The notes under the pieces: generated by a model | The model's database searches: none | Seen by the model: only the letters and a program-made list of their open reading frames with translations | Told to the model about the DNA's origin: nothing | Assembly: GCA_944375745.1 (NCBI GenBank) | Contig: CALWAV010000004.1 | Coordinates: 1 to 58,084, forward strand | DNA length: 58,084 nucleotides | Source: an uncultured Merdimonas sp. | Lineage (GTDB): Bacteria > Bacillota > Clostridia > Lachnospirales > Lachnospiraceae | Reading direction: 5' to 3' | Shown here: in pieces, positions 1-36,111 of the stretch | Position numbering within the stretch: the first letter of the stretch is position 1 | How the letters are laid out: each line of letters starts with the position of its first letter | Position numbers and translations under genes: made by a program

Positions 1-719
1 CCTCATATATATACTGCTTTGCCCGCTCCACCATGTGTTCGTATTCCTCTCTGGAAAACTGAGGTTTCAGCTCCGACTGAAGTTTCAGAGGCGGAAATTC
101 CTTCCGTTCCCCGCCGCGTATGAGGGCAGCCAGCCGTTCCAGCCTCTGTACTGCCTCTTCATAAGCCTGCTTCAATTTTCCCGGTTCATGATTCTCCGGT
201 TTATGACTCTCCGGTTTATGGCTCTCTGCTTCACGACTCTCTGCTTCACGACTTTCCGGCTCCCCTGTCCTGACCCCGACAATCAGGCAGATTTTCTGAC
301 GGTAATGGTCAAAAGCAACGACCTCATCAAACAGCATCAGATCCATATCCCGGAAATCCTTCCATCACCGGACTCTTGTTTTCTCTCAGGATTTCCCGGA
401 GCGCTTCTCCCGGATGTTCCACCCGGCGGCTTTCTATGCTTTCCGTTCCGTCCTTTCCCAGCCTGCGGATTCTCAGCTCGTGATCTGTCACTGTCAGTTC
501 CAGGGACGGATTGCATCCCAGAAAGGAATAGCGTCCCCAGACCTCCGTCTGCCTGGCGCTCTCCAGCAGGTAACAGTGACGGCTGGCGCCCCTTAAAATC
601 CGCATTACTTCCACCGGTGTATACCGGTCTGCCAGAAGCTCACAGCAGATCGGAACGCGCCGGTATCCGCCGGATGACGCTGTCTGTCTGACTGTCTCAA
701 GAGTTGGATAATACTTCAT
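1..719 (-). pseudogene. trpE: anthranilate synthase component I, frameshifted and cut by the window edge
   Basis: TrpE makes anthranilate from chorismate and glutamine or ammonia, the first step of tryptophan synthesis. The first 126 or so codons from the ATG at 719 are a normal TrpE N-terminus (CELLADRYTP, CYLLESA, WGRYSFLGCNP). The frame then runs into a stop at 327-329. A second frame open from about 363 to the window edge resumes TrpE with DMDLMLFDEVVAFD and EYEHMVERAKQYIYE. The stretch expected between them, the FTGG-VGYFSYDYIKYSEP region of about 30-36 residues, is missing, so this is a deletion plus frameshift rather than a simple base slip. A good ribosome site (ggaggaaagcag) precedes the start, and a complete Trp T-box leader lies upstream. 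Either the strain has lost this step or the assembly has an error here. Confidence 0.85.
182..256. repeat. five tandem 15-bp units inside trpE
   Basis: Five contiguous 15-bp units (182-196, 197-211, 212-226, 227-241, 242-256) share the pattern yggttyaygactctc. On the minus strand they encode the repeated pentapeptides ESREA, ESREA, ESHKP, ESHKP, ENHEP in the variable linker of TrpE after the DEVVAFD segment. The unit is a multiple of three, so expansion or contraction keeps the frame. Confidence 0.9.
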
Positions 720-783
720 CTGCTTTCCTCCTATCTGGATTCATAAACCCGGGCATGGCTCATGGCTTTCGCGCACAAGAAAA

Positions 784-1140
784 CGCCCGTCCCTGGCAGA
801 CAGCATAAACTGTCTGCCAGGGACGGGCGTATATAGTTATACTTTACCCGCGGTGCCACCCTGATTCACGGCATGACCCGTGCGCTTAGCGGAATACCTC
901 CATATTCCCGGCAACTGACGTATGCCCCACGTCGCAGAATACTCGGCTTTCGGCCTGCGCTCCTTTCCTCTTATTACAATCTTACAATTCAGAGCTTCTT
1001 CCTTTCGGCCTTTGACTGCGCCCTCAGCGGTCCATTTGACAATCTGCATCTCGATCCGGCTTCCACCTGTCCCGGACTCTCTGTGCGCGCATAACTGCCG
1101 TTATCTCCGCTTCATCGGTTTATCTGTTTAGTGCATTAAA
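784..1140 (-). promoter_or_regulatory. tryptophan T-box leader with terminator
   Basis: Read on the minus strand the leader holds the Stem I signature (agagagtccgggacaggtgg), a specifier loop with TGG (Trp) at 1034-1032 followed by ACCGC, the T-box GGTGGCACCGCGG at about 861-848, and a perfect 20-bp terminator hairpin (784-803 with 810-829) followed by a T-rich tail (gttttcttg). Uncharged tRNA-Trp is expected to pair with TGG and the T-box and prevent termination, which switches on trpE at 719. The sensor looks intact although its target gene is broken. Confidence 0.92.
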
Positions 1141-1149
1141 TTTTTTATA

Positions 1150-1178
1150 AAATTATCACAGATTCCTGCTTTTGTCAA
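1150..1178 (-). promoter_or_regulatory. promoter of the trp leader
   Basis: Minus-strand TTGACA (1178-1173), a 17-bp spacer and TAATTT (1155-1150) lie just upstream of the T-box leader. This is a near-consensus sigma-A type promoter. Confidence 0.75.
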
Positions 1179-1206
1179 GCAAAAGTTTTCAAAAACCTTT
1201 GATGGC

Positions 1207-3276
1207 TTACTGATAATCCTTCCACACAGCTTCCTCATTCTTGTAATTCAGTACCGCTGCGGAATAGGGCGGCATGAAGATCTCGATCTCGCCGTTCCAC
1301 ACCAGATAATAAGCCTTTTCCAGCGTAAAGCTGTCCTCCACCGACATAATCTGCCGGTTCATCAGCACGCCGTCCGGCGTCTCCAGGCGCCAGACAGGAA
1401 GCTCCAGCCTGCGTCCTTCTTCTGTATTATTGATTACCGTGACCACATAGTTGCCTTCCAGAAATCTTCCGAAGGAAATGCAGCCCCCGTCTGCCAGAAG
1501 CCAGACACAGCAGCCTCTGCGGCAGGCCGGATTCTCCTTGCGGATCCGGATCAGCTCCTTGTGGAAGCGGATCAGCTCCTTATCCTCATGACCCCAGGGG
1601 TAGGTTCTCCGGCGGTCCGGATCGGTAAGTCCGCAGACGCCGGCTTCATCGCCGTAATAGATGGTGGGCGCTCCGTGCCAGGTCAGCATAAAGGTCACCG
1701 CCTCACGGAAAACTGCCTTTGATACGCCTTCTTCCGCCGCCTTGCTTCCCAGATCTCCCACACGGCCCACCTTATGGTTGGTTCTGGTCAGGAAACGGGA
1801 ATGATCATGGTTTGACAGCTGATTCATGGCCACCTCGTAGGACTGGCCGTAAAAGGCCGGCGTCTTATCCTGCAGAAGCCTCAGAAAATAATCCGCATTG
1901 TTCATCAGCTCCGGATTGTAAGCATCGCTGTGCTTCTCCATACCGGTCAGATACCAGGTGATCGGTTCCATAAAGGTATCATAGTTCATAACAGAATCCC
2001 ATTCGTCCCCCTGCAGCCAGGCAGAAGCGTCTCCGTAATGCTCGGCGAAAATCACCGCGTCCGGATTGGCCTCCTTGACATTCCTGCGGAAATCCTTCCA
2101 GAATTTATGGTTGAATTCCTCGGAAAGACCCAGATCCGCGGCCACATCCAGCCTCCAGCCGTCCACATTGTAGGGCGGGGAAACCCATTTGCGGGCGATG
2201 CCCATGATGTAGTCATAAAGCTCCTGTGAAGTCTCATAGGAAAGCTTGGGCAGCGTGTCATGCCCCCACCAGCCGTCATAATATTTATTGTAAGGCCAGT
2301 CATGGGTATTGTTGAATTTGAAGAAATTCCGGTAAGGACTGTCCGCGGAAATATAGGCGCCTTTTTCATAATCGCTGTCGCCTTCATAGATCCGCTCCCG
2401 GTCCAGCCATTTGTTGAAGGAGCCGCAGTGGTTGAACACACCGTCCAGAAGGACGCGCATGCCCCTCTTGTGCACCTCTTCCACAAAATGAATAAAAAAT
2501 TCATTGCTGGCTTCCAGATTCTCCTTGCTGACTACCCGCTTGATGTACTTTGTCGCCTTGGTATTGTCCAGCTCACCCGGCGGCAGCAGCTCGCCGCCGT
2601 CGTTTTTGATCACTGTAAAATGGGGATCGATGTAATCATAATCCTGGGTATCGTACTTATGGTTGGAGGGTGATACAAAAATCGGGTTCATGTAGATCAC
2701 CTCAATGCCCAGGTCCTGCAGATAATCCAGCTTATCCAGGATTCCCTGCAGATCTCCGCCGTAAAAGGCCCGTACATCCATGGGCTTCGGGTATTCGTCC
2801 CAGTTCTCCACCTGCTCCACCTGCTCGCCGATATAGCTGTATTCCCCGGTCAGCACATCATTGGAGGGATCGCCGTTGCAGAAACGGTCCACATAAATCT
2901 GATACATCACCGCGCCCTTGGCCCATTCCGGCGTGGAAAAACCGGGAACGATTCCAAAAGCGTAGCAGCTCTGCAGATCCTCCGTCACATTTTTCTTATT
3001 GTAAAAAAGCCGTTCATCCCCGGAACGTACTTCGAAAAAATAGGGAACCAGCTCTGTCCCCACATCTATCTGTGTCTCATAGTAATCGAAATATCCTCTG
3101 GTCTGGACCTTTTCCATGGCCCATCGTTTCTCTCTGCTGATGACAAATACATTATCAACATCATCTCTGCCTGTACGGAATCTCAATGTTACCCGGTCGC
3201 CCGGTTTGGCTTCAAGGGGAATCCGGTATACGCTGGATTCATCCGCATAAAGCGCCTTCTGGTTAATTTTTCCCAT
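1207..3276 (-). CDS. GH13 alpha-glucan hydrolase (neopullulanase/cyclomaltodextrinase type)
   Basis: 689 residues, no signal peptide, so probably cytoplasmic. Residues 1-110 look like the N-terminal beta domain (CBM34-like) of the neopullulanase subfamily. The catalytic barrel follows from about 120: YQIYVDRF, DGVFNH (278-283), GWRLDV with nucleophile Asp377, FAEHYG with acid/base Glu412, and SNHDHSRF with Asp491. The C-terminal 110 residues form the usual small beta domain. Family enzymes cut alpha-1,4 (some also alpha-1,6) bonds in maltodextrins and cyclodextrins. The gene stands alone between the trp leader and ftsH, and glycogen phosphorylase is encoded 45 kb away. Exact substrate cannot be read from the sequence. 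Confidence 0.9.
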   Translation of the reverse strand: MGKINQKALYADESSVYRIPLEAKPGDRVTLRFRTGRDDVDNVFVISREKRWAMEKVQTRGYFDYYETQIDVGTELVPYFFEVRSGDERLFYNKKNVTEDLQSCYAFGIVPGFSTPEWAKGAVMYQIYVDRFCNGDPSNDVLTGEYSYIGEQVEQVENWDEYPKPMDVRAFYGGDLQGILDKLDYLQDLGIEVIYMNPIFVSPSNHKYDTQDYDYIDPHFTVIKNDGGELLPPGELDNTKATKYIKRVVSKENLEASNEFFIHFVEEVHKRGMRVLLDGVFNHCGSFNKWLDRERIYEGDSDYEKGAYISADSPYRNFFKFNNTHDWPYNKYYDGWWGHDTLPKLSYETSQELYDYIMGIARKWVSPPYNVDGWRLDVAADLGLSEEFNHKFWKDFRRNVKEANPDAVIFAEHYGDASAWLQGDEWDSVMNYDTFMEPITWYLTGMEKHSDAYNPELMNNADYFLRLLQDKTPAFYGQSYEVAMNQLSNHDHSRFLTRTNHKVGRVGDLGSKAAEEGVSKAVFREAVTFMLTWHGAPTIYYGDEAGVCGLTDPDRRRTYPWGHEDKELIRFHKELIRIRKENPACRRGCCVWLLADGGCISFGRFLEGNYVVTVINNTEEGRRLELPVWRLETPDGVLMNRQIMSVEDSFTLEKAYYLVWNGEIEIFMPPYSAAVLNYKNEEAVWKDYQ

Positions 3277-3585
3277 ACACTCACTCTTTTCTGTGCTATC
3301 CTATCTCTCCCGTATCATTTTATTTTATAATATCCGATTCTCGATTACAACCTTTTTCTGCGCAAAGTGAAACAGACAGCTTACGCTGTCTGTTTCAGGA
3401 GAAGGTATTTCTTTTTACTTATGGGGTGTAGCAAAAACTATATAATGTATTGGGGGTTTTACGAGTATTATTATATCATAGTTCGGAAATAAGTGTGCAC
3501 AAACTTCACAAAAAATGGATGTTGTTTTTGTGAATTATTCACAAATCATTTCCAGCATTATGACGAACCTACAGCCTGCTCCCCC
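3277..3585. other. intergenic region between ftsH and the GH13 gene
   Basis: No convincing gene. It holds one hairpin (3369-3396) and an AT-rich stretch near 3440-3480. Both flanking genes run on the minus strand, so the GH13 promoter should lie here, but I could not assign -35 and -10 boxes with confidence. Confidence 0.5.
3369..3396 (-). terminator. hairpin downstream of ftsH
   Basis: A perfect 12-bp stem (gaaacagacagc with gctgtctgtttc) closes a 4-nt loop. It lies 190 bp past the ftsH stop. The minus-strand tail is only weakly T-rich (actttgcgc), so termination is likely but not certain. Confidence 0.55.
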
Positions 3586-5412
3586 TTACTCTCCCTGCTG
3601 TGCCTGATCAAACAATGCCTCAAATTCCTCGCGGCTGATTTTCTCTTTCTCCAGGAGAAGCTTTGCAGCGGCATCCAGCACTTTCCGGTTATCCAGAATA
3701 ATCTTCTTGGCCTTCTCGTAGCATTCGTCCACGATCCGCTTAATCTCCGCGTCAATCTTGCCTGCCACATCTTCGCCGTAGGCCTTGGTATGGCCGAAAT
3801 CCCGTCCGATGAAGACCTCTTCATCGGAATCATAGCTTACCAGTCCCAGTTCATCGGACATGCCGTACTTGGTCACCATGGCTCTGGCCACACGGGTAGC
3901 CTGCTTGATATCCTGGGAGGCACCTGTGGTAATATCATCAAAAACCAGTTCCTCCGCAATGCGGCCGCCCAGGGAAACCTCGATATCCTGAAGCATTCTG
4001 CCTTTTGTGTTAAACATCTCATCCTTTTCCGGCAGGGGCATGGTATAGCCGGCGGCGCCCACTCCCGTAGGAATGATGGATACGCTGTAGACAGGCCCCA
4101 CATCCGGCAGCACATGGAACAGAATCGCATGGCCCGCCTCATGATAAGCCGTAATTCTCTTTTCCTTTTCCGATACCACGCGGCTCTTCTTCTCCGCGCC
4201 GATTCCCACCTTCACAAAGGCTTTGCGGATATCGTCCTGCACAATGTAAGGCCGGTCCTCCTTCGCGGCGAAAATAGCCGCCTCATTCAGAAGGTTTTCC
4301 AGGTCCGCTCCTGTCATGCCCGCTGTAGTCTGGGCAATCTGTTTTAAATCCACATCCTCCGCCAGAGGCTTGTTCTTTGCGTGTACCTGCAGGATCTCTT
4401 CCCGGCCCTTCACATCCGGCCGGCCTACCACAATCTTCCGGTCAAAACGGCCGGGACGCAGGATAGCCGGATCCAGAATATCCACACGGTTTGTGGCTGC
4501 CATCACAATGATGCCCTCATTGACGCCGAAGCCGTCCATCTCCACCAGGAGCTGGTTCAGCGTCTGCTCTCTCTCATCGTGGCCGCCGCCCATGCCGCTT
4601 CCCCGGCGTCTCGCCACCGCGTCTATCTCATCGATAAACACGATACAGGGATGATTTCTCTTGGCGTCCGCAAAGAGATCACGGACACGGGACGCACCCA
4701 CGCCCACGAACATCTCCACAAAATCAGAACCGGAGATGCTGAAAAAGGGGACGCCCGCCTCTCCGGCCACAGCCTTCGCAAGCAGGGTCTTACCCGTTCC
4801 GGGAGGGCCCTCCAGAAGCACTCCCTTGGGTATGCGGGCTCCCACACGGACGTATTTCTGGGGCAGCTTCAGGAAATCTACAATTTCCCGGAGCTCTTCC
4901 TTCTCTTCCTGAAGACCCGCCACATCCTTAAAGGTAGTATGGATCTGCTCCTGGGTGGTCATTCTGGCACGGCTTCTGCCGAAATCCATCATTTTCCCGC
5001 CACTTCCGCCGTTCTGGCGGTTCAAGAAGAGCATCATCACAACCACTGCCGCCACGGCAGCCAGCAGGGAAATCCCCACGGATCCCAGCCAGCTCTCTTC
5101 CCTCACCTGGGTAAAGGAGACGCTGATCTCCGGATTCTGAAGCAGAAGATCCCTGGCCTCGACCGTATCCGGCACATTGACCTCACGCTCTGTGCCATCC
5201 TTCATGGTCAGATGGACCGTACCTGTCGGCGTGGCCTCCGACTGCCGTATCACGGCGCTGGCCACCTGGTCCTCCTCCACGGCTGTCTCAAACTGTTCAT
5301 AGGTATAGGTGTTCTCCATGTCCATCCCTGCGATCCACTGCAGAAAAAGCAGAATGATCACCACAAGAATCACCATGGACAGACCCGATACCCGAAATTG
5401 TCTGTTGTTCAA
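3586..5412 (-). CDS. ftsH: ATP-dependent zinc metalloprotease FtsH
   Basis: 608 residues, normal length. Two membrane segments (about 11-30 and 111-130) flank the extracytoplasmic domain. The AAA module has Walker A GPPGTGKT (202-209), Walker B IVFIDEID (257-264) and a second region of homology with LRPGRFDR. The zinc protease motif HEAGH is at 424-428. FtsH degrades misfolded membrane proteins and short-lived regulators. The start is a TTG preceded by agaggaggaaatgat; no ATG fits as well. It is the last gene of the tilS-hpt-ftsH block, 29 bp after the hpt stop, the same order as in other Firmicutes. Confidence 0.97.
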
Positions 5413-5441
5413 ATCATTTCCTCCTCTGAATTGTGCCGCTG

Positions 5442-5969
5442 CTAATCCACAAATTCTATTACTCCGATGTACGGAAGATTCCGGTACTTCTGATCATAGT
5501 CCAGGCCGTAGCCCACCACGAACTCATCAGGAATCTGGAATCCGGTATATTCCACATCCACATCCACGACTCTCCGGGACGGTTTATCCAGCAGCGTACA
5601 GATCGTCATGGTCTTGGGATTTCTCTGTCCCAGAAGCTTCACCAGATGATTCAGCGTCCTTCCGGAATCGATAATATCCTCCACAATAATCACATTCTTT
5701 CCCTGGAGCGGTTCGTCCAGGTCCTTGCTCAGGCGCACCACACCGCTGGACTTTGTCTCAGCGCCGTAGCTGGATACCTGCATAAAATCTATGGTCACCG
5801 GCAGAGTAATTCTCTTTGCCAGCTCGCAGACAAAAAAGACGCTTCCCTTCAGGATGCAGATCAGATGAACACTCTCTCCCGCGAACTTTTCGCTGATCTT
5901 TTCGCCCAGTTCCCTGATTTTTGCGTCTACCTATTCCTACGGAATCATCACTCTGATTTTATCAGCCAT
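5442..5969 (-). pseudogene. hpt: hypoxanthine phosphoribosyltransferase with two in-frame amber codons
   Basis: The frame from the ATG at 5969 is 175 codons, the normal length, and starts MADKIRVMIP. Codons 11 and 13 are both TAG (5939-5937 and 5933-5931), after which the frame continues cleanly as VDAKIRELGEKIS, LKGSVFF and the PRPP loop EDIIDSGRTL to the end. Relatives usually have acidic residues at these two places, so GAG to TAG at each is the simplest reading. The next ATG (5798) would remove the LKGS pyrophosphate loop, so a restart should not give an active enzyme. Hpt salvages hypoxanthine and guanine with PRPP. The ATG overlaps the expected end of the full tilS frame by 8 bases. If the stops are real the gene is dead; a sequence error must be excluded. 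Confidence 0.85.
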
Positions 5970-6096
5970 CTTCCTCTCCTCCATCCACCTGTACTTTCAG
6001 GATTCTTTTCGTATCTTCCGTCACCTTATACCCTTCGCTGATCCGGTACCCCGGAATCCACACAATGTGGGAGCCGTCCGCAAGCAGCCACAGACG

Positions 6097-7392
6097 CTAC
6101 CTTTTGAATGACGGTATCTTTTTATCCACCAGATAAGCTTTCAGCTTCTTTCTGCCATGCTCCCGGTTGATCTCCAGATAATCCCCCGGACGCCTCCTTC
6201 GGATTACCAGACATTGTTTTATTTTATCATAGTCAAACCATTTCGTATATGTTTTTTGCGGAATAATTTGATCTTTTTGCGCTTTTTCCAGGGAAAAACG
6301 CCAGGTCTGCCCCCCTGCCCGCACGCTGCCGGGCGGGCAGGGGCAGGGAATGGCTTCCTCCCCGGAAGCCCGGGTCTGGCCCTGCCCTGTGCCGGCATTC
6401 CCGCAGATCCAAAGACCCTGGTAGTCCCTCCGGGCGGACCTGCCCCCGGGCAGGTCCGCCCGGCTCCCCGTCTGCTTTTCCATCAGCTCCGAAAGGATCC
6501 GGATATGCACCCTCTCCACATCCTTCAGGCCGCCCAGTTTTTCCATGCACAGGCGCAGCAGCCTCTGCTGAATCACCGGATCCAGCCCCTGAAATCCCTT
6601 CTCAAACAGAAAACAGGCTCCTTCCTCCTCCCGGACGCACAGTCGGAAGGCCTCCTGGGTCTTCTGCTCCAGATAATGTTCTATCTGGGAAAGCTCCCGG
6701 GCCGCCTCCGAAATATGGCGCTCCGCCTGGTCATTGATATGCTCCCGCACATAGGGAAGCAGTTCCCGGCGGATCCGGTTTCTCATATATTCGCTGCTTT
6801 CATTGGTACTGTCTGTGCGCCAGGAGATTCCCCTGCTCTCCAGCCACTCCAGAATCTCCTCCCGCCTGATCTCCAGAAGAGGGCGGATGATATCTCCTTT
6901 TACAGGCTCCATGCCGCTTAAGCCCCGGATTCCGCTTCCCCGGAACAGATGAAAAAGTACAGTCTCTGCCTGATCATCCGCATGATGGGCCACCGCGATG
7001 CGCGCCCCGCCAAGCTCTGCGGCCGTCTTCCGGAAAGCCTCATAACGGCAGAGCCGTCCCGCTTCCTCCACAGAGAGCCTTTCCCGGTCTGCCCGCTCCC
7101 GTACATCAAAGCTGAAGACTTTCAGAGAAATCTCCTCCCGGGCACAGAGCTCCCGCACAAAGGCCTCATCGCCGTCCGCTTCCTCTCCCCGCAGGCCATG
7201 ATGCACATGAACCGCCTGCAGATGCGCTCCCTGCTCCCTGCACAGCTCTTTCAGCAGGAAAAGCAGGCATACAGAGTCCGGGCCTCCCGAGACGCCTGCC
7301 ACAATATGCTCACCCGGTCCAATCATCTGATGCTCTTTTACATATGCCCGTACCCGTTCCAGCATGCCTTTTCCTTTCCCATTTCTTTTCAT
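6097..7392 (-). CDS. tilS: tRNA(Ile)-lysidine synthase, C-terminus cut short by TAG
   Basis: 431 residues. The N-terminal PP-loop ATPase motif SGGPDS is at 35-40, with HVHHGLRG and AHHADDQAETVLF following. TilS puts lysidine on C34 of tRNA-Ile(CAU) and is essential in bacteria. The frame stops at TAG 6099-6097 after KIPSFKR, but translation past it gives RLWLLADGSHIVWIPGYRIS and ends at TGA 5964-5962, overlapping the hpt ATG by 8 bases. That extension is the normal end of the TilS C-terminal domain, so the TAG is an internal nonsense codon where relatives carry Glu or Asp; full length would be 476. About 45 residues are lost. Start chosen at ATG 7392 with aggaagggg upstream; ATG ten codons later is possible. 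Confidence 0.88.
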   Translation of the reverse strand: MKRNGKGKGMLERVRAYVKEHQMIGPGEHIVAGVSGGPDSVCLLFLLKELCREQGAHLQAVHVHHGLRGEEADGDEAFVRELCAREEISLKVFSFDVRERADRERLSVEEAGRLCRYEAFRKTAAELGGARIAVAHHADDQAETVLFHLFRGSGIRGLSGMEPVKGDIIRPLLEIRREEILEWLESRGISWRTDSTNESSEYMRNRIRRELLPYVREHINDQAERHISEAARELSQIEHYLEQKTQEAFRLCVREEEGACFLFEKGFQGLDPVIQQRLLRLCMEKLGGLKDVERVHIRILSELMEKQTGSRADLPGGRSARRDYQGLWICGNAGTGQGQTRASGEEAIPCPCPPGSVRAGGQTWRFSLEKAQKDQIIPQKTYTKWFDYDKIKQCLVIRRRRPGDYLEINREHGRKKLKAYLVDKKIPSFKR

Positions 7393-7455
7393 TTTCCCCT
7401 TCCTGCGGGGAGTTGAACTTTCTGAGCTCAGTATACAGGCTTTTCTCCGTGAAAG

Positions 7456-8910
7456 TCAATACTTTACAAGTCCCATGACCAGCACGGTCATATCGTCAGA
7501 GGGCTCTTTTTCCCGGTATTGGCGGACGCGCCCCAGGATATAGGACGCCAGCTCGGCCGGATTGCCCGTGTCATGCTCCATGATAATATCCTTCATCAGG
7601 CTCTCCTGATGGGCGGCCGGAAGAGCGTCCATCACGCCGTCCGTGACCATAATCACCATATCCCCATCGTAAAGCTTCTTTCCGGTGCAGTCCGGCTCCA
7701 GCCTGTGAAAGACTCCGGCCGGAAGGCTTGTGGACGAAATGGTTTCCACCCAGTTTTCCCGGCGGATAAATGTGGTGGAGGCCCCCACCTTTAGGAATTC
7801 GCACACGCCTGTATATAAATCCAGGGATGCAATGTCAATGGTGGAAAATACCTGGGCGTCCGAGCGCAGAATCAGCGCGGAATTGATCATGCGCACTGCG
7901 GTCTCCTTGGAAAAACCGGCCTCCAGAAACTGTTCCAGAAGATCAATCACCATCTCGCTTTCCCGATAAGCCTTGATTCCCGAACCCATGCCGTCAGACA
8001 GGGCCCCGATAAACTGTCCCTCCCTGCAGTAGCGCAGGGAAAAATTGTCCCCCGAAATCCGCTCCTCTCCCTTGACTGCCTTTTCTGCTCCGTAAAGGAC
8101 CTGAAAATTGGTGCGCTCCACAAAAAGCACGGTTACCTTCTCACTGCCCACAAAGGCCCGGCTGTCCCTGGCCGGCATCATGGATTTTTTCATCAGCTTT
8201 GTAAGCGTGGCCGCAATTTCCTTCACCGCCACGCATTTCCGCTTTCTGGTGCTCATGGTCAGATAGACCTCCTGGCGCCGGTGTTCTTCGCAGTAGACCA
8301 GCACTGAATGAACCGAAAGCCCCATGGCTTTCAGCTTTTTCCTCAGATGCTCCTCCATCTCCTCATCGCTGTGGGTGTCCCAGGCATGCTCCACCGTATC
8401 CGTCATAATCTGCGCCATCTCATTCAGCTGCACCGCCATGGCTTCCCTGTTTTCCTCCAGCCTTGTATTCCACAGAAGATTGAGCTTTGCCGGAGCGTCC
8501 AGCACTGCCGCTCCATCCTCCGGATACACATGCTCTTCCCCGTTTTCTCTGTTTTCTCCCTGCCCTCCGCTTTCCGCGGACTTTTTGGCCGAAAGGCCGG
8601 AAAAGCTCTGGGCCAGGTTCCGGAAGGCTGTCTCGTATTCCTGCAGCCTGGCCCGGGCCGGACCAAGCACGCTTGCAGGCTCCTGGCTTTCAGCCGGCAG
8701 AGGCTTGAGCAGCCACTCCATGATGCTTCCGCAGATGACTGTCAGTGAGCAGACCAGAAGTCCCTGGGCCGCTCCCAGAATCACCGCGTAATCCTGCTCC
8801 ATCTGGAACATTCCCATACCAATCTGCATAGCCGCCACGCAGGCCCCGGCTGTGATGCCGTAGACCCAGCCCCAGCTTCCATTTTTTTGCTGTTCCTCTT
8901 CCCTCTTCAT
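7456..8910 (-). CDS. spoIIE: stage II sporulation protein E, short form (PP2C phosphatase)
   Basis: 484 residues. Two N-terminal membrane segments (about 13-33 and 42-62) are followed by a charged linker (110-130), the central region, and a C-terminal PP2C-type phosphatase with DGMGSG (306-311) and VTDGVMDA near 430. SpoIIE dephosphorylates SpoIIAA to activate sigma-F in the forespore. The classical protein is about 800 residues with about ten membrane segments, so this one lacks most of the membrane domain. The start has a good ribosome site (caggaggaacgaaaa) and nothing upstream extends it, so the short form looks genuine. It lies 63 bp upstream of tilS, as in related genomes. Confidence 0.88.
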   Translation of the reverse strand: MKREEEQQKNGSWGWVYGITAGACVAAMQIGMGMFQMEQDYAVILGAAQGLLVCSLTVICGSIMEWLLKPLPAESQEPASVLGPARARLQEYETAFRNLAQSFSGLSAKKSAESGGQGENRENGEEHVYPEDGAAVLDAPAKLNLLWNTRLEENREAMAVQLNEMAQIMTDTVEHAWDTHSDEEMEEHLRKKLKAMGLSVHSVLVYCEEHRRQEVYLTMSTRKRKCVAVKEIAATLTKLMKKSMMPARDSRAFVGSEKVTVLFVERTNFQVLYGAEKAVKGEERISGDNFSLRYCREGQFIGALSDGMGSGIKAYRESEMVIDLLEQFLEAGFSKETAVRMINSALILRSDAQVFSTIDIASLDLYTGVCEFLKVGASTTFIRRENWVETISSTSLPAGVFHRLEPDCTGKKLYDGDMVIMVTDGVMDALPAAHQESLMKDIIMEHDTGNPAELASYILGRVRQYREKEPSDDMTVLVMGLVKY

Positions 8911-9097
8911 TTTTCGTTCCTCCTGATCTCCTGTGTGTGTCTGTGTGATTGGGTATTATAGAGGACGGAAAACAAATATTTTGTCAAACCGCCGCCTCGA
9001 AAAACGGAAGTTTTAGACATTTTAGGACATAGAATCTGTCTTAAGATATTAAACTGCCGCCGCAGACTTTTCACAGGCTTTTCCGGAACAAAAAAAT

Positions 9098-9164
9098 AAG
9101 GCCCGCCGCAGGTTTCCCGGATTCCGGATTGATGATCCGGATCCCGGCCCGCAGAGGCCTTTTT
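9098..9164 (-). terminator. terminator after divIC
   Basis: The stem pairs aaggcc at the left with ggcctt at the right and encloses an inner ccggat/atccgg hairpin. The minus-strand exit is followed by ttattttttt, and the plus side by ttttt, so it can work in both directions. It separates the divIC operon from spoIIE. The remaining bases of 8911-9205 hold no gene that I can see. Confidence 0.75.
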
Positions 9165-9205
9165 ACTCTGATATATAACATTCTTCCTGACGCAGGAATA
9201 AGAAA

Positions 9206-9511
9206 CTACTCCTCCGCTTTAAAAAGGATCTCATCCTCATAGACCAGTCCCAGCCGCTCCTTGGCGACCTCTTCCACATACTTCTTGGTCTGAACATACT
9301 TTTTCAACTCTTCAATTTCTTTCGTTCTCTCCTGTTCCTCGGAGATCTCTGCCAGGAGCTCCTCCTGCTGCTGCCGGTACGCGTCATTTTTCTGCTGGAG
9401 CCGGAGCTTCCCAAAAGAAGCCACGAGCAGCAGACAGAAAACTGCCGCCAGGACCAGCTTGAATTCCATGCGCCTTTTCCGTCTCATGACGCGCCGTGTC
9501 TTCGTGGTCAT
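9206..9511 (-). CDS. divIC: septum formation initiator, DivIC/FtsB family
   Basis: 101 residues. A basic N-terminal tail (RRVMRRKRR) precedes a single membrane segment (about 18-34), then a long coiled coil (LQQKNDAYRQQQEELLAEI) and the short C-terminal domain with KKYVEEVAKERLGLVYEDE, which matches the family. DivIC works with FtsL and DivIB in the divisome. The ATG overlaps the yabQ stop as ATGA, so the two are translationally coupled. It ends in TAG. Confidence 0.9.
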   Translation of the reverse strand: MTTKTRRVMRRKRRMEFKLVLAAVFCLLLVASFGKLRLQQKNDAYRQQQEELLAEISEEQERTKEIEELKKYVQTKKYVEEVAKERLGLVYEDEILFKAEE

Positions 9512-9867
9512 GGCTTCTTTCCTCCCTGGATAGACTTTGATGCTATTATACCCTCTTTGACTGAATTATGCAATTTCTTTCTCACTTTTTTTAATAACTT
9601 TCCTAATTGCAGACACAATAACATGCCCAGCACCACAGCCGCGATGGCAAAGCCCCGGATAGCCCCGCTGTTCTCCTCATAAAGCATCCGGAAAATGAGA
9701 ATTCCGCATATCAGCCAGTACAGAATATCTTCTGCCGCCAGAGCAAGCGTTCCATGGCGGATCAGCCGCCGGATCAGACTGAGCAGGCCGTAAAAAAGGG
9801 ACAGGAAAATTCCCATTAGAAACGCCCGCCCGAAGAACTGCAGCTCCAGCACAATTCCCCCGCTCAT
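9508..9867 (-). CDS. yabQ: spore cortex biosynthesis protein YabQ
   Basis: 119 residues with three hydrophobic segments (about 7-28, 44-60, 69-88) and a basic C-terminus. YabQ is needed for spore cortex formation and sits in the outer forespore membrane in Bacillus. The identification rests on the fold pattern and on its place between yabP (3 bp upstream) and divIC (overlap of 4 bp), which is the conserved order. Confidence 0.85.
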   Translation of the reverse strand: MSGGIVLELQFFGRAFLMGIFLSLFYGLLSLIRRLIRHGTLALAAEDILYWLICGILIFRMLYEENSGAIRGFAIAAVVLGMLLCLQLGKLLKKVRKKLHNSVKEGIIASKSIQGGKKP

Positions 9868-9869
9868 AT

Positions 9870-10154
9870 CTATTTGAACAGGCGGCCCAGAAGCGACGCC
9901 CCTGCCTTATGGAAGTCTGTCACTTCCGAATAGGCCATGCTGTCGATCCGCCCTTCGATGTCCACCTCGCCCTTTTCCAGTGTCAGGCGGTTTACATGCA
10001 GATCCGCTCCCTTTATGGTCAGCATTCCCTGCTCCGTCTCCAGCAGAATCTCCGCAATGTCAAAGGAAATGACGTCTGTCACGCCGCTTACAGTACCTGT
10101 CCTTCTATTGTTCAGCAAAAGCCTGTGTGCCTTTGCATACTGCTTTTCCTCCAC
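9870..10154 (-). CDS. yabP: sporulation protein YabP
   Basis: 94 residues of the YabP/YqfC family: HRLLLNNRRTGTVSGVTDVISF, then ETEQGMLTIKGADLHVNRLTLEKGEVDIEG. YabP is a small spore-coat or cortex assembly factor. I chose the GTG at 10154 because ttaggaggtc sits five bases before it; the in-frame ATG eight codons upstream lies inside that ribosome site and has none of its own. Ends in TAG, 2 bp before yabQ. Confidence 0.88.
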   Translation of the reverse strand: MEEKQYAKAHRLLLNNRRTGTVSGVTDVISFDIAEILLETEQGMLTIKGADLHVNRLTLEKGEVDIEGRIDSMAYSEVTDFHKAGASLLGRLFK

Positions 10155-10226
10155 AAAAAGACCTCCTAACATATTCATCTGTTGTTAAATATATTAGAAG
10201 GTCTTTGATTTTATTCGTATTTTCTT

Positions 10227-10466
10227 TTAAAGATACCGGTACAGTTCCTTTGCCTCATCCTTGCGCACGGTCTCCTGTACGTCCAGAACCTCCACCTTCA
10301 CGGCTTTGCTTCCGAACTGTATCTCAATCACATCGCCCGCCTTCACGTTCACCGATGCTTTGGCGGTCTTGCCGTTCACCAGAACCCGGCCCGCGTCGCA
10401 GGCCTCATTGGCCACGGTTCTCCGCTTGATCAGACGGGAAATCTTCAGATATTTGTCCAAACGCAT
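10227..10466 (-). CDS. rqcP: S4-domain RNA-binding protein, RqcP/YabO family
   Basis: 79 residues that are almost entirely one S4 domain: MRLDKYLKISRLIKRRTVANEACDAGRVLVNG. RqcP binds the 50S subunit with RqcH and promotes C-terminal alanine tailing in ribosome rescue. The stop of the HU gene lies 3 bp upstream, so the pair is probably cotranscribed. Confidence 0.9.
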   Translation of the reverse strand: MRLDKYLKISRLIKRRTVANEACDAGRVLVNGKTAKASVNVKAGDVIEIQFGSKAVKVEVLDVQETVRKDEAKELYRYL

Positions 10467-10469
10467 GGA

Positions 10470-10742
10470 TTAGTTCAGAGCGTCCTTCAGTGCCTTTCCG
10501 GCTGTGAATTTCGGGGACTTGGAAGCCGCAATCTGCATCGGCTCGCCGGTCTGGGGATTTCTTCCCTCTCTGGCGGCTCTCTCAGACACCTTGAATGTGC
10601 CGAAGCCTACCAGCTGAATCTGCTCACCCTTCTTCAGTTCCTCTGCTACTACATCAGTGAAAGCCTTCAGAGCCTTCTCTGCATCTTTCTTGGATAATTC
10701 ACTCTTCTCTGCGATCGCAGCTACAAGTTCCATTCTGTTCAT
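10470..10742 (-). CDS. hup: HU-family DNA-binding protein
   Basis: 90 residues from the ATG at 10742 (MNRMELVAAIAEKSELSKKDAEKAL), with the DNA-binding arm GFGTFKVSERAAREGRNPQTGEP and the end SPKFTAGKALKDALN. HU wraps and bends DNA without sequence preference. An aggagg site lies ten bases before the start. It heads the short rqcP block and follows mazG. Confidence 0.96.
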   Translation of the reverse strand: MNRMELVAAIAEKSELSKKDAEKALKAFTDVVAEELKKGEQIQLVGFGTFKVSERAAREGRNPQTGEPMQIAASKSPKFTAGKALKDALN

Positions 10743-10886
10743 TCGGATAATTCCTCCTATCAATAATACTCTTACTGGGTTTTGATGATATGTCTGTGTG
10801 TGCGTGCTCCATATCGTCTTTCCTATTTATACCCGTTTCTCATATATTTGTCAAGGAGTTTGGCGGATTTTATTGCTGTTCTGTTA

Positions 10887-21281: not shown

Positions 21282-21995
21282 CTAAAAGGCATCCTCCGGA
21301 ATCCGCGCCACAAAATTCTCCACAAGCCTTACGCTGTGCTCAATGGCCTGCTTCTCAAACTCCGGATAATCCACTGACGCGCTGTCGTCCGCCTTGTCGG
21401 AAATAGCCCGCACAATCACGAAGGGTACCTTATTCAGATAGGCCGCCTGGGCGATCGCCGCTCCTTCCATCTCTGTACAGTACCCGTCTGTCCAGGAGGC
21501 AATCTCCTCTTTCACCTCTCTGCCGGCCACAAACTGGTCTCCGGTCACAACCCGGCCCACAAATACCTGGATATCCGGATTGACCTCCTCGCAGGCCGCC
21601 TTTGCCATCCGGATCAGCTCCGGATCCGCCGGAAAACTGAGCGTATCCATCCGGGGAATCTCACCTCTCGCATAGCCAAAAGCCCGCGCGTCCATATCAT
21701 GCTGCAGAGCGTCTGAGGAAAGCACAATATCTCCGATATTGATCTCCGCCTTCAGCGAGCCGGCGATTCCTGTATTGATCAGCCGGTTTACGTTGAACAC
21801 ATCCACAAGAATCTGGGCGCAGAGTCCCGCGTTCACCTTTCCGATGCCGCTCTTCACCAGCACCACATCTCTGTCGTTCAGCCTTCCCTGATAAAATTCC
21901 ATGGAGGCCTTCTTTACGACAACCTCTATCTCCATCTTTTCCTTCAAAAGAACGATTTCCTCTTCCATGGCTCCGATAATGCCTGTTCTTCCCAT
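21282..21995 (-). CDS. mtnN: 5'-methylthioadenosine/S-adenosylhomocysteine nucleosidase
   Basis: 237 residues from ATG 21995. Motifs fit MTAN: GIIGAMEEEI, KSGIGKVNAG, NTGIAGSL, VVTGDQFV, and TEMEGAAIAQAAY with the purine-binding glutamates, then VRAISDKAD with the catalytic Asp. It releases adenine from MTA and SAH in methionine and methyl-group recycling. The start is fixed by gcgagg six bases upstream; a TTG two codons earlier is less likely. Confidence 0.95.
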   Translation of the reverse strand: MGRTGIIGAMEEEIVLLKEKMEIEVVVKKASMEFYQGRLNDRDVVLVKSGIGKVNAGLCAQILVDVFNVNRLINTGIAGSLKAEINIGDIVLSSDALQHDMDARAFGYARGEIPRMDTLSFPADPELIRMAKAACEEVNPDIQVFVGRVVTGDQFVAGREVKEEIASWTDGYCTEMEGAAIAQAAYLNKVPFVIVRAISDKADDSASVDYPEFEKQAIEHSVRLVENFVARIPEDAF

Positions 21996-22213
21996 AACCA
22001 ACCTCGCTTTCCGCTTCCGTTTCTACTCTTCTTTACGACAGACCTTCTGCCGGATTATTTTTTATTGTAACAACAGATGCATATAATTTCAAGACATTTC
22101 CGGTTTTCCCGCCTTTTCCATCTTTTTGATGCTGCCTTTTGCCGCAATCTCCTTTGACTTCCTTGGCGCTGTCCTTTTTTCTTTTGGTCTTCTCTCTATC
22201 TTCCGCGGAAGAG

Positions 22214-22257
22214 CAGAAAACGCCGGCGGGGAAGGCTGTCCCCGCCGGCGTTTTCTG
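22214..22257. terminator. bidirectional hairpin upstream of mtnN
   Basis: cagaaaacgccggcgggga pairs perfectly with tccccgccggcgttttctg around a short loop. The A-run and T-run flank the GC stem on both sides, the usual form of a bidirectional terminator. It lies in the gap between the secreted-protein gene and mtnN, both minus strand, so it probably ends the upstream transcript. Confidence 0.8.
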
Positions 22258-22471
22258 TCCCTGTCTGTCATTACCGTCCACAAACCGGGAATAGGAAAAA
22301 GTGTGTTGTGTTTTGTGTGTTTTGTTTTTCGTTTTTTATCAAGTGTGTTTGTGTTACCAAATTATAAAGATTTGAAGTTCCATATTCAGTTGTAGTTTGG
22401 GCTGCGAAGCAGCCCTGGGGTTTGTTTTTTCCATGCTGGTGTGGTGTGTCGCCCAAACACCGGAGCAGGAG
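22258..22471. other. GT-rich intergenic stretch
   Basis: No gene seen. The region is strongly G+T rich on the plus strand (gtgtgttgtgttttgtgtg near 22300) and holds a small hairpin at 22399-22415 (gggctgc, loop, gcagccc) followed by a plus-strand T-run. Confidence 0.5.
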
Positions 22472-22969
22472 TTATGATGCCTTTAAAGCCTGAGTACGAG
22501 TACTCGTAGTTTCTGTTGTAGAGCCTTCTGTTACACTGTGTACGCCACGGACAAGGTACAGGCGGCCTGATGTTACAGAGATATTAGCTTTGCTACCATG
22601 GCAGGATGTTGTATTCTGTTCTTCAAAATAGTAACTTCCAATTGTTCCAAAGCTATTTCCACCATCAAGACTTTCGTCAAGATAAACACCAACTTTTACC
22701 TTGTCACATTTAGAATATGCGGTAGTAGTACCAGATACATTTACTTTAGCCGTCCCAGCCTTTTTGATTCCGCTCACTCCACTTGCCAGATAAGTTCCTT
22801 TTGCAATCCCATACCAAGTATCTATTGCCTCATCCTCTGTAATGGTATATTCATGATATCCAGGTACTGATATTTCTTCTGCGTGGCTAATTAGCGTCTG
22901 AGTATTCCACATGCAAATTGTCATCAAAAAGCATAAACCCGCTAAAACTGTCTTCTTCACGTTTTTCAA
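22472..22969 (-). CDS. secreted protein of unknown function (possibly DUF6147-like)
   Basis: 165 residues. An N-terminal signal peptide (KKTVLAGLCFLMTICMW, cleavage probably after SHA) is followed by a small Thr/Ser/Gly-rich domain with WYGIAKGTYLASGVSGIKKAGTAKVNVSG and a later GRLYLVRGVHSV. Two cysteines (KCDK and SCHG) might pair. It resembles small exported proteins of Lachnospiraceae, but I am not sure of the family name. It sits 70 bp after the DUF4367-like gene on the same strand, suggesting a shared regulon with the sigma factor at 25144. Confidence 0.65.
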   Translation of the reverse strand: MKNVKKTVLAGLCFLMTICMWNTQTLISHAEEISVPGYHEYTITEDEAIDTWYGIAKGTYLASGVSGIKKAGTAKVNVSGTTTAYSKCDKVKVGVYLDESLDGGNSFGTIGSYYFEEQNTTSCHGSKANISVTSGRLYLVRGVHSVTEGSTTETTSTRTQALKAS

Positions 22970-23039
22970 ACATTCACCCCCTTCTATTAATAATTAAAGA
23001 TAAACAGTTACAATAAGAATACGAATAATTCATGTTAAA

Positions 23040-23822
23040 TCATATATTATTAAAAAATATTCCACGAATAATCTCTTCAAATTCATCAATACTTATGCTT
23101 GTCATAAGATGATAATAGGCATTTCCTTGTACTAGCTGGGTTACAAAAGATAATCCATTATCGGCTCTATCAATCTGCCATATATACAGTTCTTCATCAT
23201 AATAAAACGATTCTATTTTATCTACAATTTTGCCATCAATTTGCGCGTCAAAAGCAGCTTCACTGTTTTGTTTATTTTGATAAATTATTAAACTTAAATT
23301 TTGATAAGAAAACTCCAACTGAGCTTCACCCATATTTTCATCAATATAAACTTTCTCCAGCTCCATCCCCTGCGGCTTATACCCCAGCCTCAACGCCAAT
23401 ATCCCCAGCCTCTCCTCTATCTCCTCATAAGCTTCCTCTTCCGTCAGCTCAACATAATAAACATCATCCCCACTAATAATCGTCACATTATACTCCCCAT
23501 CCTCAACCTGGCTCTCCACCTCCGGTGCAAAGAGCCGCTCGCCGCTGGCGCCAAGGCCGAGGGCTGCCAGAAGAGCCGCCGCCAGGCCCAAGGCTATGAG
23601 AGCGCGCCTGCGGATATGGAAGGTTCCGGTCCTGGGAGCGAACGGTGCTTTTCCCTTTTTCTCCTCTATCCGCTTCATCAGGTCCCCATAGGAGTCCTCC
23701 GGCATCCGGAGGGAAGACAGCTCCGGGTCCTCTTCCACGGCTTCCTCCGCCTTTTTCTCCAGAGCCTCTGCTTCTGTCTCGATTTCTTTTTCTATCCATT
23801 TATGGAATTTATCTCTCGTCAT
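23040..23822 (-). CDS. membrane protein with DUF4367-like domain, candidate anti-sigma factor
   Basis: 260 residues. An acidic N-terminal cytoplasmic part (1-68) is followed by a membrane segment (about 71-92, RRALIALGLAAALLAALGLG) and an extracytoplasmic domain with LGYKPQGMELEKVYIDENMGEAQLEFSYQN, which matches the DUF4367 pattern seen behind ECF sigma genes. An inside-out single-span layout next to a sigma gene suggests an anti-sigma or sensor role; that is inference. The N-terminus lacks an obvious zinc-binding HxxxCxxC. The sigma gene is separated from it by a plus-strand murG-like gene. Confidence 0.7.
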   Translation of the reverse strand: MTRDKFHKWIEKEIETEAEALEKKAEEAVEEDPELSSLRMPEDSYGDLMKRIEEKKGKAPFAPRTGTFHIRRRALIALGLAAALLAALGLGASGERLFAPEVESQVEDGEYNVTIISGDDVYYVELTEEEAYEEIEERLGILALRLGYKPQGMELEKVYIDENMGEAQLEFSYQNLSLIIYQNKQNSEAAFDAQIDGKIVDKIESFYYDEELYIWQIDRADNGLSFVTQLVQGNAYYHLMTSISIDEFEEIIRGIFFNNI

Positions 23823-23914
23823 TTTCTTCCTCTTAATTTCTTCCGATATGAATTGACAGACCGATGGGATCCTATCATAATAAACATAGACTGTTTTTCA
23901 CGGAGGTGGAATCA

Positions 23915-24985
23915 TTGAAACGTATACTTCTGACCGGCGGAGGAACCGCCGGACATGTGACTCCCAATATTGCTCTGCTTCCCAGGCTTCGGGAGCTTGG
24001 CTATGAAATCTTTTACATGGGATCTTATGATGGAATAGAGAAAAAACTGATTGAAGAATTTCAGATTCCCTATTACGGCATTTCCTCCGGAAAGCTGCGC
24101 CGCTATTTTGATCCCAAAAACTTTACCGATCCTTTTAAAGTTCTGAAGGGATACAGCGAGGCCCGGCATATCATCAAAAAGCTGAAGCCGGATGTGCTGT
24201 TTTCCAAGGGCGGTTTTGTATCCGTCCCTGTGGTTCTGGCCGCCAGACATTTTAAGATTCCGACAATCATCCACGAATCTGATATGACTCCCGGTCTGGC
24301 TAATAAGCTCTGCATTCCTTCCGCCTGGAAGGTCTGCTGCAACTTTCCCGAGACCCTTCAGTATCTGCCGAAAGAGAAGGCTGTCCTGACAGGCTCTCCT
24401 ATCCGGCAGGAACTCCTTACAGGTGACTCTCTGAAGGCTCTCCGCTTCACAGGCCTTTCCCCGGACAAACCTGTCATTCTTGTCATGGGAGGCAGTCTCG
24501 GAGCTGCCGCGGTAAACGAAGCTGTCCGGAGCATTCTTCCCCAGCTGCTGAAGGAATACCATGTCATCCATCTCTGCGGCAAGGGAAAGGTAGATCCCAC
24601 CCTGAACGGCCTTTCCGGCTATGTTCAGTATGAATACATCAAAAATGAACTGAAGGATTTGTTTGCTCTGGCCGATATCGTCATCTCCAGAGCCGGCGCC
24701 AATGCCATCTGTGAGCTTCTGGCTCTGCGCAAACCCAGCCTGCTGATTCCCCTTCCGGCCGCTTCCAGCCGGGGCGACCAGCTTCTGAATGCCCGCTCTT
24801 TTGAAAAACAGGGCTTCAGCATGGTGCTGGAGGAAGAACAGATCACTCCGGACTCTCTTTTTGACGCCGTTCATAATCTTTATGAGAACAGACAGCGGAT
24901 GACGGAAGCCATGGCCGCCAGCCATCAGTCCGACTCCATCGAAACTATTATCAGCCTCATCGAGGAAGCTGCGGGAAAGGCTTAA
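23915..24985 (+). CDS. murG: MurG-like UDP-GlcNAc glycosyltransferase
   Basis: 356 residues from a TTG at 23915, chosen because cggaggtgg lies five to six bases upstream; an ATG at 23864 would add 17 residues without a site. GT28 motifs: TGGGTAGHVTPNIAL at the N-terminus, SKGGFVSVPVVLAA, HESDMTPGLANK, GGSLGAAAVNE, and SRAGANAICELLALRKPSLLIPLP. MurG adds GlcNAc to lipid I to form lipid II at the inner membrane face. The gene is outside any division-cell-wall cluster, so it may be the only copy or a second one. It is the only plus-strand gene between the sigma factor and the DUF4367-like gene. Confidence 0.9.
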   Translation: MKRILLTGGGTAGHVTPNIALLPRLRELGYEIFYMGSYDGIEKKLIEEFQIPYYGISSGKLRRYFDPKNFTDPFKVLKGYSEARHIIKKLKPDVLFSKGGFVSVPVVLAARHFKIPTIIHESDMTPGLANKLCIPSAWKVCCNFPETLQYLPKEKAVLTGSPIRQELLTGDSLKALRFTGLSPDKPVILVMGGSLGAAAVNEAVRSILPQLLKEYHVIHLCGKGKVDPTLNGLSGYVQYEYIKNELKDLFALADIVISRAGANAICELLALRKPSLLIPLPAASSRGDQLLNARSFEKQGFSMVLEEEQITPDSLFDAVHNLYENRQRMTEAMAASHQSDSIETIISLIEEAAGKA

Positions 24986-27476: not shown

Positions 27477-28061
27477 TCAAAGCTGAATATGGGGGAACAA
27501 GTCATAAATGCTGTGTCCCAGCTTCTTGTCGAATTTATCTTTCAGTTTCAGCGCTTCAACCAGATGATAATGAGTATTCTCATGAATCCCTTTCCGGACC
27601 AACAGGTCAATCAGGCGTTTCTCCATCGTCATGGTCTCAAACAGACACATCAGGTCGCACAGGTTGATGATCTCTTCATAAGTATTATAATGATGTTCCC
27701 GAAGTTTCTCACAGCGCAGCGGGTGCTTTTTCGGGATCCCACCCGCCTCACAGGTATAGTCTCCGTTGATATAAGAATGGGTCATGCAGATCCATGCATC
27801 CTGCTCATCAATCCCCTGCTCCAGCAGATAATTGAATCCGAGAACATCATGCCATTCCACATCTTTTTCATTCAGGGACTTTCCAATATCATGTACATAT
27901 CCCAGTGCCCTGACATAATCTGGTTCTTCCAGCCCGATCGCCTCCGCGATCACTGCCGCTGTGTCTCCCACACAGATACTGTGGCGGATAAATCCGTCGT
28001 TTTCCACTTCTTTTCTGGCTTTTTCCAAAAGGCGTGCCGCTATTTCTACTGTTAATCTCAT
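27477..28061 (-). CDS. HD-domain phosphohydrolase
   Basis: 194 residues. The metal ligands are visible as RHSICVGD, YVHDIGKS and HSY, followed by helical C-terminal segments with LCDLMCLFETMTMEKRL. HD enzymes of this size often hydrolyse nucleotides, but the substrate is not evident. It may be cotranscribed with the 48-residue gene just upstream (28083-28229). Confidence 0.8.
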   Translation of the reverse strand: MRLTVEIAARLLEKARKEVENDGFIRHSICVGDTAAVIAEAIGLEEPDYVRALGYVHDIGKSLNEKDVEWHDVLGFNYLLEQGIDEQDAWICMTHSYINGDYTCEAGGIPKKHPLRCEKLREHHYNTYEEIINLCDLMCLFETMTMEKRLIDLLVRKGIHENTHYHLVEALKLKDKFDKKLGHSIYDLFPHIQL

Positions 28062-28082
28062 TTTTTCTGCCTCTTTTCTTTT

Positions 28083-28229
28083 TTATTTTATTTCACGCAT
28101 AAAGCGTAGGCTTTCGAGCTTTTCGATTTCTTCCAAGATCTCCTCGTGTTTCTGCCGCTTTCCGAAATCCAGCTCGGTGATTGCGCAGATATCTTTTTTA
28201 TAACGCTTGTATTCGGACATCCGTACCAT
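28083..28229 (-). CDS. small basic protein of unknown function
   Basis: About 48 residues from ATG 28229 (MVRMSEYKRYKKDICAITELDFGKRQKHEEILEEIEKLESL). A gaggtg site lies six bases upstream, and the composition (alternating basic and acidic helix) looks coding. The same frame stays open further upstream to 28409 with a hydrophobic stretch, so a longer product of about 89 or 108 residues is possible. No family recognised. Confidence 0.4.
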   Translation of the reverse strand: MVRMSEYKRYKKDICAITELDFGKRQKHEEILEEIEKLESLRFMREIK

Positions 28230-28517
28230 GGTCTTCACCTCAATATGCGGTTGGAAAAATAATCCAGCGGCCGCAAAAAATAGCCGAACCACCGCAGAGA
28301 ACAAGGATACTTCCTCAGTATCTTCAATCAGTCCCATCAATAGTTCGCTCATACTTATACATCCACTTAATCCCCTGTTATATGGTATATCATTAAATAT
28401 GCCTTTCAAATTTTGCTGTTTTTTAATATTTTCATGCTATTTTTCCAGAAAAACTTCAACCGCAAAAATTTATTTGATATAATTCAAGGCAGAGTATACA
28501 AAGGAGGATGCGCCCGT

Positions 28518-31585: not shown

Positions 31586-31587
31586 AA

Positions 31588-31612
31588 GACCGCCTGCATT
31601 GCTCAGGCGGTC
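31588..31612. terminator. hairpin between the regulator and the convergent ABC operon
   Basis: gaccgcctg pairs with caggcggtc around a 7-nt loop. It sits 3 bp past the regulator stop and 25 bp before the binding-protein stop, so it probably serves both strands. Confidence 0.7.
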
Positions 31613-31637
31613 ACGGAAATATAAATTCAACGTCTGA

Positions 31638-32915: not shown

Positions 32916-32951
32916 TTCTTCTCCTCCTTCTTATCTTGAGTTTCTTATTGT

Positions 32952-33797: not shown

Positions 33798-33812
33798 TCT
33801 CTTCCGCCTTTC

Positions 33813-34715: not shown

Positions 34716-34735
34716 AGGTACTCCTCCTCTCGACA

Positions 34736-35776: not shown

Positions 35777-35967
35777 TTCATCTCCTTCGTTTCTGTTTGC
35801 TATTCGCGCCGTGTGCTTTTGAACGATTTCAATATACCACTTAAAAAATCATGTGTTTTTTGCTCTTTTCTACATTTAGAATGCTATTTTTGTTGATTTT
35901 TATTTGATATGTAAGAAAAATGTAAAGTTTGTAAAAAGAAAATGAAGATAATTTTACATAAAGAAAA

Positions 35968-35996
35968 AGCTGTTCAGGCAATTATTCTGAACAGCT
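35968..35996 (-). terminator. second hairpin downstream of tRNA-Lys
   Basis: agctgttcag pairs with ctgaacagct around a 9-nt loop, and the minus-strand exit is followed by tttttcttt. It may be a backup terminator, 165 bp past the tRNA. Confidence 0.65.
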
Positions 35997-36111
35997 CTGC
36001 GCATGTCTGTCATATTCAATATTGTATACCTACGTCTGCCAGCTGTATTTTGTCTCCAAACTATGTTACTCCGCTTCCCCCTTCAGGGCCCATATTTCCA
36101 GTATTTGCGCA

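Follow-up and report, generated by a model that had tools for sequence, protein, structure and literature searches.

Three TAG codons interrupt the adjacent tilS and hpt genes

We identified three in-frame TAG codons, clustered within 167 bases, that interrupt the adjacent genes tilS and hpt in a draft bacterial genome, and we consider them probably to be a local error, caused by damage or arising in the consensus of what seems to be a metagenome-type assembly. The window, meaning the whole stretch of DNA that was analyzed, is the entire contig C4 (58,084 bases). The draft genome to which it belongs totals 2,642,176 bases, is divided into 162 contigs and has a completeness of 83.0%; it appears to be metagenome-assembled.

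The minus strand of the window carries tilS, hpt and ftsH, in that order. The frame of tilS, encoding tRNA-Ile lysidine synthetase (5962..7392), begins with an ATG at 7392 and has its natural stop, a TGA, at 5964-5962. This TGA overlaps by 8 bases the frame of hpt, encoding hypoxanthine phosphoribosyltransferase (5442..5969), which extends from an ATG at 5969-5967 to its own terminator, a TAG at 5444-5442. Downstream of hpt lies ftsH (3586..5412), named by eye from its translation and free of internal stops. The same gene order, with overlapping tilS and hpt, is described for the tilS-hprT-ftsH locus of B. subtilis (PMC8152036). According to that source the overlap there is one nucleotide, compared with 8 bases here, and, unlike in that locus, both tilS and hpt are interrupted in the window.

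On the plus strand, the interruptions appear as CTA at 5931-5933, 5937-5939 and 6097-6099. These read as minus-strand TAG at hpt codon 13, hpt codon 11 and tilS codon 432, respectively, each in frame with its gene, so that hpt is interrupted twice and tilS once. The TAGs were confirmed as genuine features of the given sequence, with both frames continuing as normal protein past each of them, in agreement with the description in an earlier note on this DNA. When read through, hpt encodes 175 residues (176 if its natural TAG is also read as a residue) and scores 226 bits against the HGPRTase profile TIGR01203 (cut-off 150) in a profile search; the frame downstream of the stops alone still reaches 216 bits. 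The read-through tilS product of 476 residues contains PP-loop, TilS substrate-binding and TilS_C domains in the same type of search. The TAG at 6099-6097 splits the TilS_C domain in half, and the remainder of this domain lies in the frame that runs on to the TGA within hpt. Accordingly, the TilS_C score falls from 52.7 bits (profile positions 1-70 of 74) for the full product to 21.8 bits (1-37) for the truncated one, with a cut-off of 22.

If termination occurred at these codons, hpt would yield only a 10-residue peptide, and TilS would lack half of its C-terminal domain. A restart of hpt past the stops was also considered. The next ATG, GTG or TTG is a GTG at 5798, leaving 118 residues, and such a product is unlikely to be a full enzyme.

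Related genomes lack the stops

The locus was searched for in 61 genomes (the source genome and 60 others) and was at least partly matched in 48 of them, a count that includes the source genome and all 15 relatives of the same genus. The closest relative, G010, shows 89% identity across the locus; across window positions 351-10883 the figure is 94%. None of the seven same-genus relatives aligned in detail has the stops. For a census of residues, we compared 109 loci, comprising 29 from the 61-genome search and the best 80 of 567 TilS matches in a named collection; a species may recur in this set. The hpt gene was present in 107 of these loci, none of which has a stop in the best alignment. The tilS gene was present in all 109, and its best alignments contain six stops in five loci, at query positions 8, 10, 471, 474, 474 and 474, with none away from the very ends. 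Examining hpt and tilS in the closest genomes, a check proposed in the earlier note, thus found the TAGs absent from every compared relative (107/107 for hpt; 109/109 for tilS, barring the ends). Among the best 80 matches, a set that may lack very close records, the nearest named TilS relatives, at 73% identity, come from Lachnoclostridium sp. An131, an uncultured Merdimonas and Candidatus Merdisoma merdipullorum.

The earlier note had taken glutamate, encoded by GAG, to be ancestral at all three sites. Glutamate is found at each of them in G010, at hpt codon 11 in 104 of the 107 loci and at hpt codon 13 in 78 of 107. At tilS site 432, however, the commonest residue among the 109 loci is Asp (56), with Glu in 28; G010, G015 and G009 all have Glu. 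The proposed GAG codon is less firm at hpt codon 13, where 45 loci have GAA and 33 have GAG. Because GAA is also the codon in G010, an ancestral GAG at this site is not certain.

No other such stop in the scanned stretches

To delimit the phenomenon, gene-like frames of G010, G015 and G009 were scanned for stops against the window (43,940 bases covered) and against three 20 kb stretches out of 20 sampled stretches elsewhere in the genome (55,969 bases covered). Across the scanned stretches, only the three TAGs were in-gene stops contradicted by all three relatives. For each of a further 17 stops contradicted by two or three relatives, a different frame is open over a longer run at the same place; examples are ftsH at window 4652 and a 463-residue ORF at L244:15060. 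Two of the 17, at window 36423 and L239:4159, are followed closely by an aligned Met start. The scan's count covers stops contradicted by at least two relatives; of those that a single relative contradicts, the one at window 22025 is located upstream of the ORF at 21282-22001.

Rows with fewer than 8 differences, fewer than 60 codons (window) or 80 codons (other stretches), or a low third-position share were dropped, as were rows below 70% identity in the other stretches. Because of these filters, the scan was uninformative for near-identical stretches, among them a large part of L247 compared with G010. A codon-score scan of the sample returned 61 candidate same-frame stops, which fall outside the one-by-one comparison with relatives. 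Since no other such in-gene stop was found in the scanned stretches, the cause appears to be local and the assembly not broadly error-ridden.

Constraint on hpt and changes in tilS

Besides its two stops, hpt differs from its G010 counterpart by 33 synonymous and 2 missense differences. The corresponding counts are 79 synonymous differences and 51 amino-acid changes for tilS, besides its stop, and 139 and 19 for ftsH. If the two nonsense changes in hpt were neutral, about 40 missense changes would be expected alongside them; the 2 observed have a P of about 4e-15 if this mean is taken as exact. A softer test, which asks how often 4 non-synonymous changes would include 2 or more nonsense ones, gives P 0.013. 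Both frames are open apart from the TAGs, despite 5 gap openings in the alignment with G010. Counted per branch, this genome has 21 changes in tilS against 41 for G010, and 7 against 5 in hpt.

These data bear on whether tilS and hpt are an old pair of pseudogenes undergoing slow decay. Such a history would be compatible with the interruption of two genes and with the tilS ratio of 51:79, which is looser than that of hpt or ftsH, although TilS is generally a variable protein and is variable in the present set as well. The 33 synonymous against 2 missense differences show no relaxed constraint on hpt, the frames are otherwise unbroken through both genes, and tilS has accumulated fewer changes on this branch than on that of G010. 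We therefore disfavor slow decay, which on these comparisons seems most improbable. The same constraint on hpt agrees with the earlier argument that independent loss of two adjacent genes is improbable. From the constraint and the branch counts it follows that the stops are very recent, arose in one joint event, or are not real.

Decoding of UAG as an amino acid is unsupported

A suppressor tRNA that decodes UAG, or read-through, would allow both proteins to be made at full length. Neither frame is broken before or after its TAGs, and hpt is under constraint in other respects, as would be expected in that case, and the in-frame TAGs within conserved genes resemble UAG recoding. We searched the assembly for the corresponding tRNA. 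All 36 tRNA genes found could be typed. Those for Glu comprise two with CTC and two with TTC, and none of the 36 has a CUA anticodon; the assembly is 83% complete, so a tRNA could be missing from it. A targeted pattern for a CUA tRNA gave one match, which lies in tRNA-Arg(TCT).

TAG also behaves as an ordinary terminator, in contrast to what is expected of a recoded codon. In a sample of 427,084 bases, 77 of the 423 ORFs that look coding, some of which may be false frames, terminate in TAG, which is also the natural terminator of hpt both here and in G010. The hpt case is weak evidence, because reading through that codon would lengthen the protein by just 10 residues. The predicted RNA fold around the stops shows nothing unusual (z -0.94), and in the stretches compared the in-gene TAGs occur at this one locus, in three sites. 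A broad screen for altered codes reports that pseudogenes and contamination produce false recoding signals (PMC8629427). Taken with the tRNA search, these observations make suppression or read-through very unlikely as an explanation of the three codons.

Expected requirement for TilS and search for backup copies

The tilS gene is considered essential (PMC12514573). In open runs of at least 450 codons in the sample, which may include false frames, AUA accounts for 649 of 65,138 codons, and at this frequency of about 10 per 1000 TilS should be needed. The assembly yielded no second tilS; the only other match is 33% identical and covers residues 8-150. Fixed loss of TilS would consequently be surprising, and a weakened enzyme less so.

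A second hpt had been suggested as a further point to check. The genome contains 12 phosphoribosyltransferase (PRTase) matches, of which this hpt locus scores best, and the second-best ORF reads by eye as a putative adenine phosphoribosyltransferase; the genome may still hold a second hpt.

Type and clustering of the changes

At all three sites the plus strand of the window has A where relatives have C (one relative has T at 6099), corresponding to G to T on the coding strand. The differing positions are 5933, 5939 and 6099; the first two had been given as 5932 and 5938 in the earlier note. Its proposal that the three sites share one type of change held up, with less certainty at hpt codon 13. 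The three changes lie on the same strand within 167 bases. We defined a private change as a position at which the window differs from all aligned relatives, with at least five aligned. By this definition there are 82 private positions in 3951-8899, of which ten are C>A, and five of the ten fall in 5933-6099. At three of these five sites (5961, 6094 and 6099) the relatives vary among themselves, and at 6094 G010 has G, with the amino acid unchanged relative to G010.

Shuffling the labels of the private C>A changes gave p 0.021 for the tightest three and p 0.023 for the tightest four, for a site chosen after the fact. In tilS and hpt together, 87 of 663 coding-strand guanines yield a stop upon change to T. 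The chance that three of three changes are nonsense is P 0.002, which softens to P 0.008 (3 of 4), 0.018 (3 of 5) or 0.13 (3 of 10) as other private G>T changes are counted. Because the site was picked for its stops, these values overstate the surprise.

A general mutator of the mutY type is unsupported. Over one 4.9 kb stretch, G>T and C>A together account for 16 of the 82 private changes in this genome and for 19 of the 105 in G010, and the mutY match (314 bits, cut-off 286.5) has no stop. A weaker match to the MutY model, at L352 (G000:C68:5837-6424; 91.8 bits), contains one TGA, which may be the end of the frame.

A real mutation cluster as a possible alternative

The clustering on one strand, with C>A changes tighter than in shuffles, could reflect a real and very recent event in one strain, such as a mutation shower or an error-prone repair tract, by which hpt was lost and TilS truncated. 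Half of TilS_C may then be enough for the strain to survive; alternatively, the assembly may have captured a variant that was rare or dying out. The loss is limited to half of a C-terminal domain, and the cluster resembles mutation showers in consisting of several changes of the same type and strand, 6 to 160 bases apart. G to T is a different type of change from the cytidine deamination of AID/APOBEC, and in this the cluster differs from the showers so produced. Same-strand showers have been attributed to that deamination (PMC3628087).

In bacteria, mutagenesis induced by stress, which involves DinB, is said to focus mutations around breaks (PMC9488704), and a 463-residue ORF in the genome sample reads by eye as DinB. 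In one species, tilS mutations outside the catalytic domain increased fitness (PMC12514573). TilS and HprT are moreover reported to act jointly on ftsH in B. subtilis (PMC8152036), and a joint loss of tilS and hpt could for that reason share an effect. Against these points, a single stop suffices for the loss of hpt, which leaves the second unexplained; AUA is a common codon in this genome, and TilS counts as essential (PMC12514573); and neither the spectrum of changes nor mutY gives a sign of a mutator. We regard a real cluster as a possible but less than probable origin of the stops. That the stops are both real and fixed, giving a lineage with TilS cut inside its C-terminal domain and without Hpt after one same-strand G-to-T burst that struck both members of the TilS-HprT pair, or one that tolerates the stops through weak amber read-through, is unlikely. 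If the stops are real, the locus would offer a natural experiment on whether a bacterium that makes free use of AUA can do without the C-terminal domain of TilS; it would also exemplify a bacterial G-to-T mutation cluster.

A local sequence error as the favored explanation

Contamination by a modified laboratory strain was another option of the earlier note, and a misplaced variant copy would be a related one. The contig is co-linear with same-genus genomes over long stretches, with some gaps, and a second copy of the locus was not found in the assembly, so that this origin is scarcely credible. Of the four options in the earlier note, the artefact and the single clustered mutation event remain, while the suppressor and the modified strain are unsupported.

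We hypothesize that the consensus over the 167 bases rested on few molecules, or on one, that were damaged, duplicated or mis-called. Such molecules would give same-strand G-to-T changes, and the genes of the source organism would be intact and ordinary. A stretch of 167 bases would fit inside one sequenced fragment. Within this proposal, the comparisons show where the changes lie, their type, their absence from the compared relatives and the constraint on hpt; we infer the metagenome origin and an oxidative or base-calling cause; the thin read support at the locus is a guess. The fragmentation of the assembly into 162 contigs, the constraint on hpt, the absence of the TAGs from relatives and the lack of a backup tilS in the assembly all count for an error. 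We favor it over a real cluster because constraint is not relaxed and TilS is expected to be necessary, given the use of AUA. Two findings count against it, namely that three of three changes are nonsense, which is unlikely for random errors (P 0.002, or 0.008 to 0.13 with other private changes of this type counted), and that the sample is otherwise clean over 43,940 and 55,969 bases.

The changes resemble oxoG library artefacts in being same-strand G>T within one fragment-sized stretch. Such artefacts are usually of low frequency and not fixed in a consensus, in which the present case differs. Same-strand G>T mismatches are reported to mark ex vivo guanine oxidation, and the matched whole-genome data described in the same source have no consistent G>T asymmetry (PMC12390751); whole-genome libraries are therefore not shown there to behave in this way. 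If the stops are an error, they are a caution that clustered same-strand changes in a draft can make an essential gene look lost or a stop codon look recoded.

Other features of the contig

On the minus strand, a strong GC-rich hairpin of 15 base pairs (window 6410-6490, z -5.0) lies within the tilS coding frame, and G010 has a similar self-inverted match. Tracts at 0-2% divergence from G010 alternate with tracts at about 10% (window 2001-3350 and 9851-10883), and the 20 kb of L247 (G000:C64:20001-40000) differ from G010 by 0.0-2.1% per kb throughout. This mosaic may reflect recombination between species or a mixed assembly; a strain-mixed assembly, in line with the error reading, could produce 0-2% tracts beside tracts of about 10%, and real recombination could do so equally. 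Divergence from G010 is higher, at 16-20%, in window 22001-24000 than in the remainder of the contig. The region at about 28000-36000 is unmatched in G010, G009 and G015 save for matches of 63-69% within about 35054-35716, and inspection of its ORFs by eye suggests a sensor kinase, a response regulator and a sugar ABC transporter.
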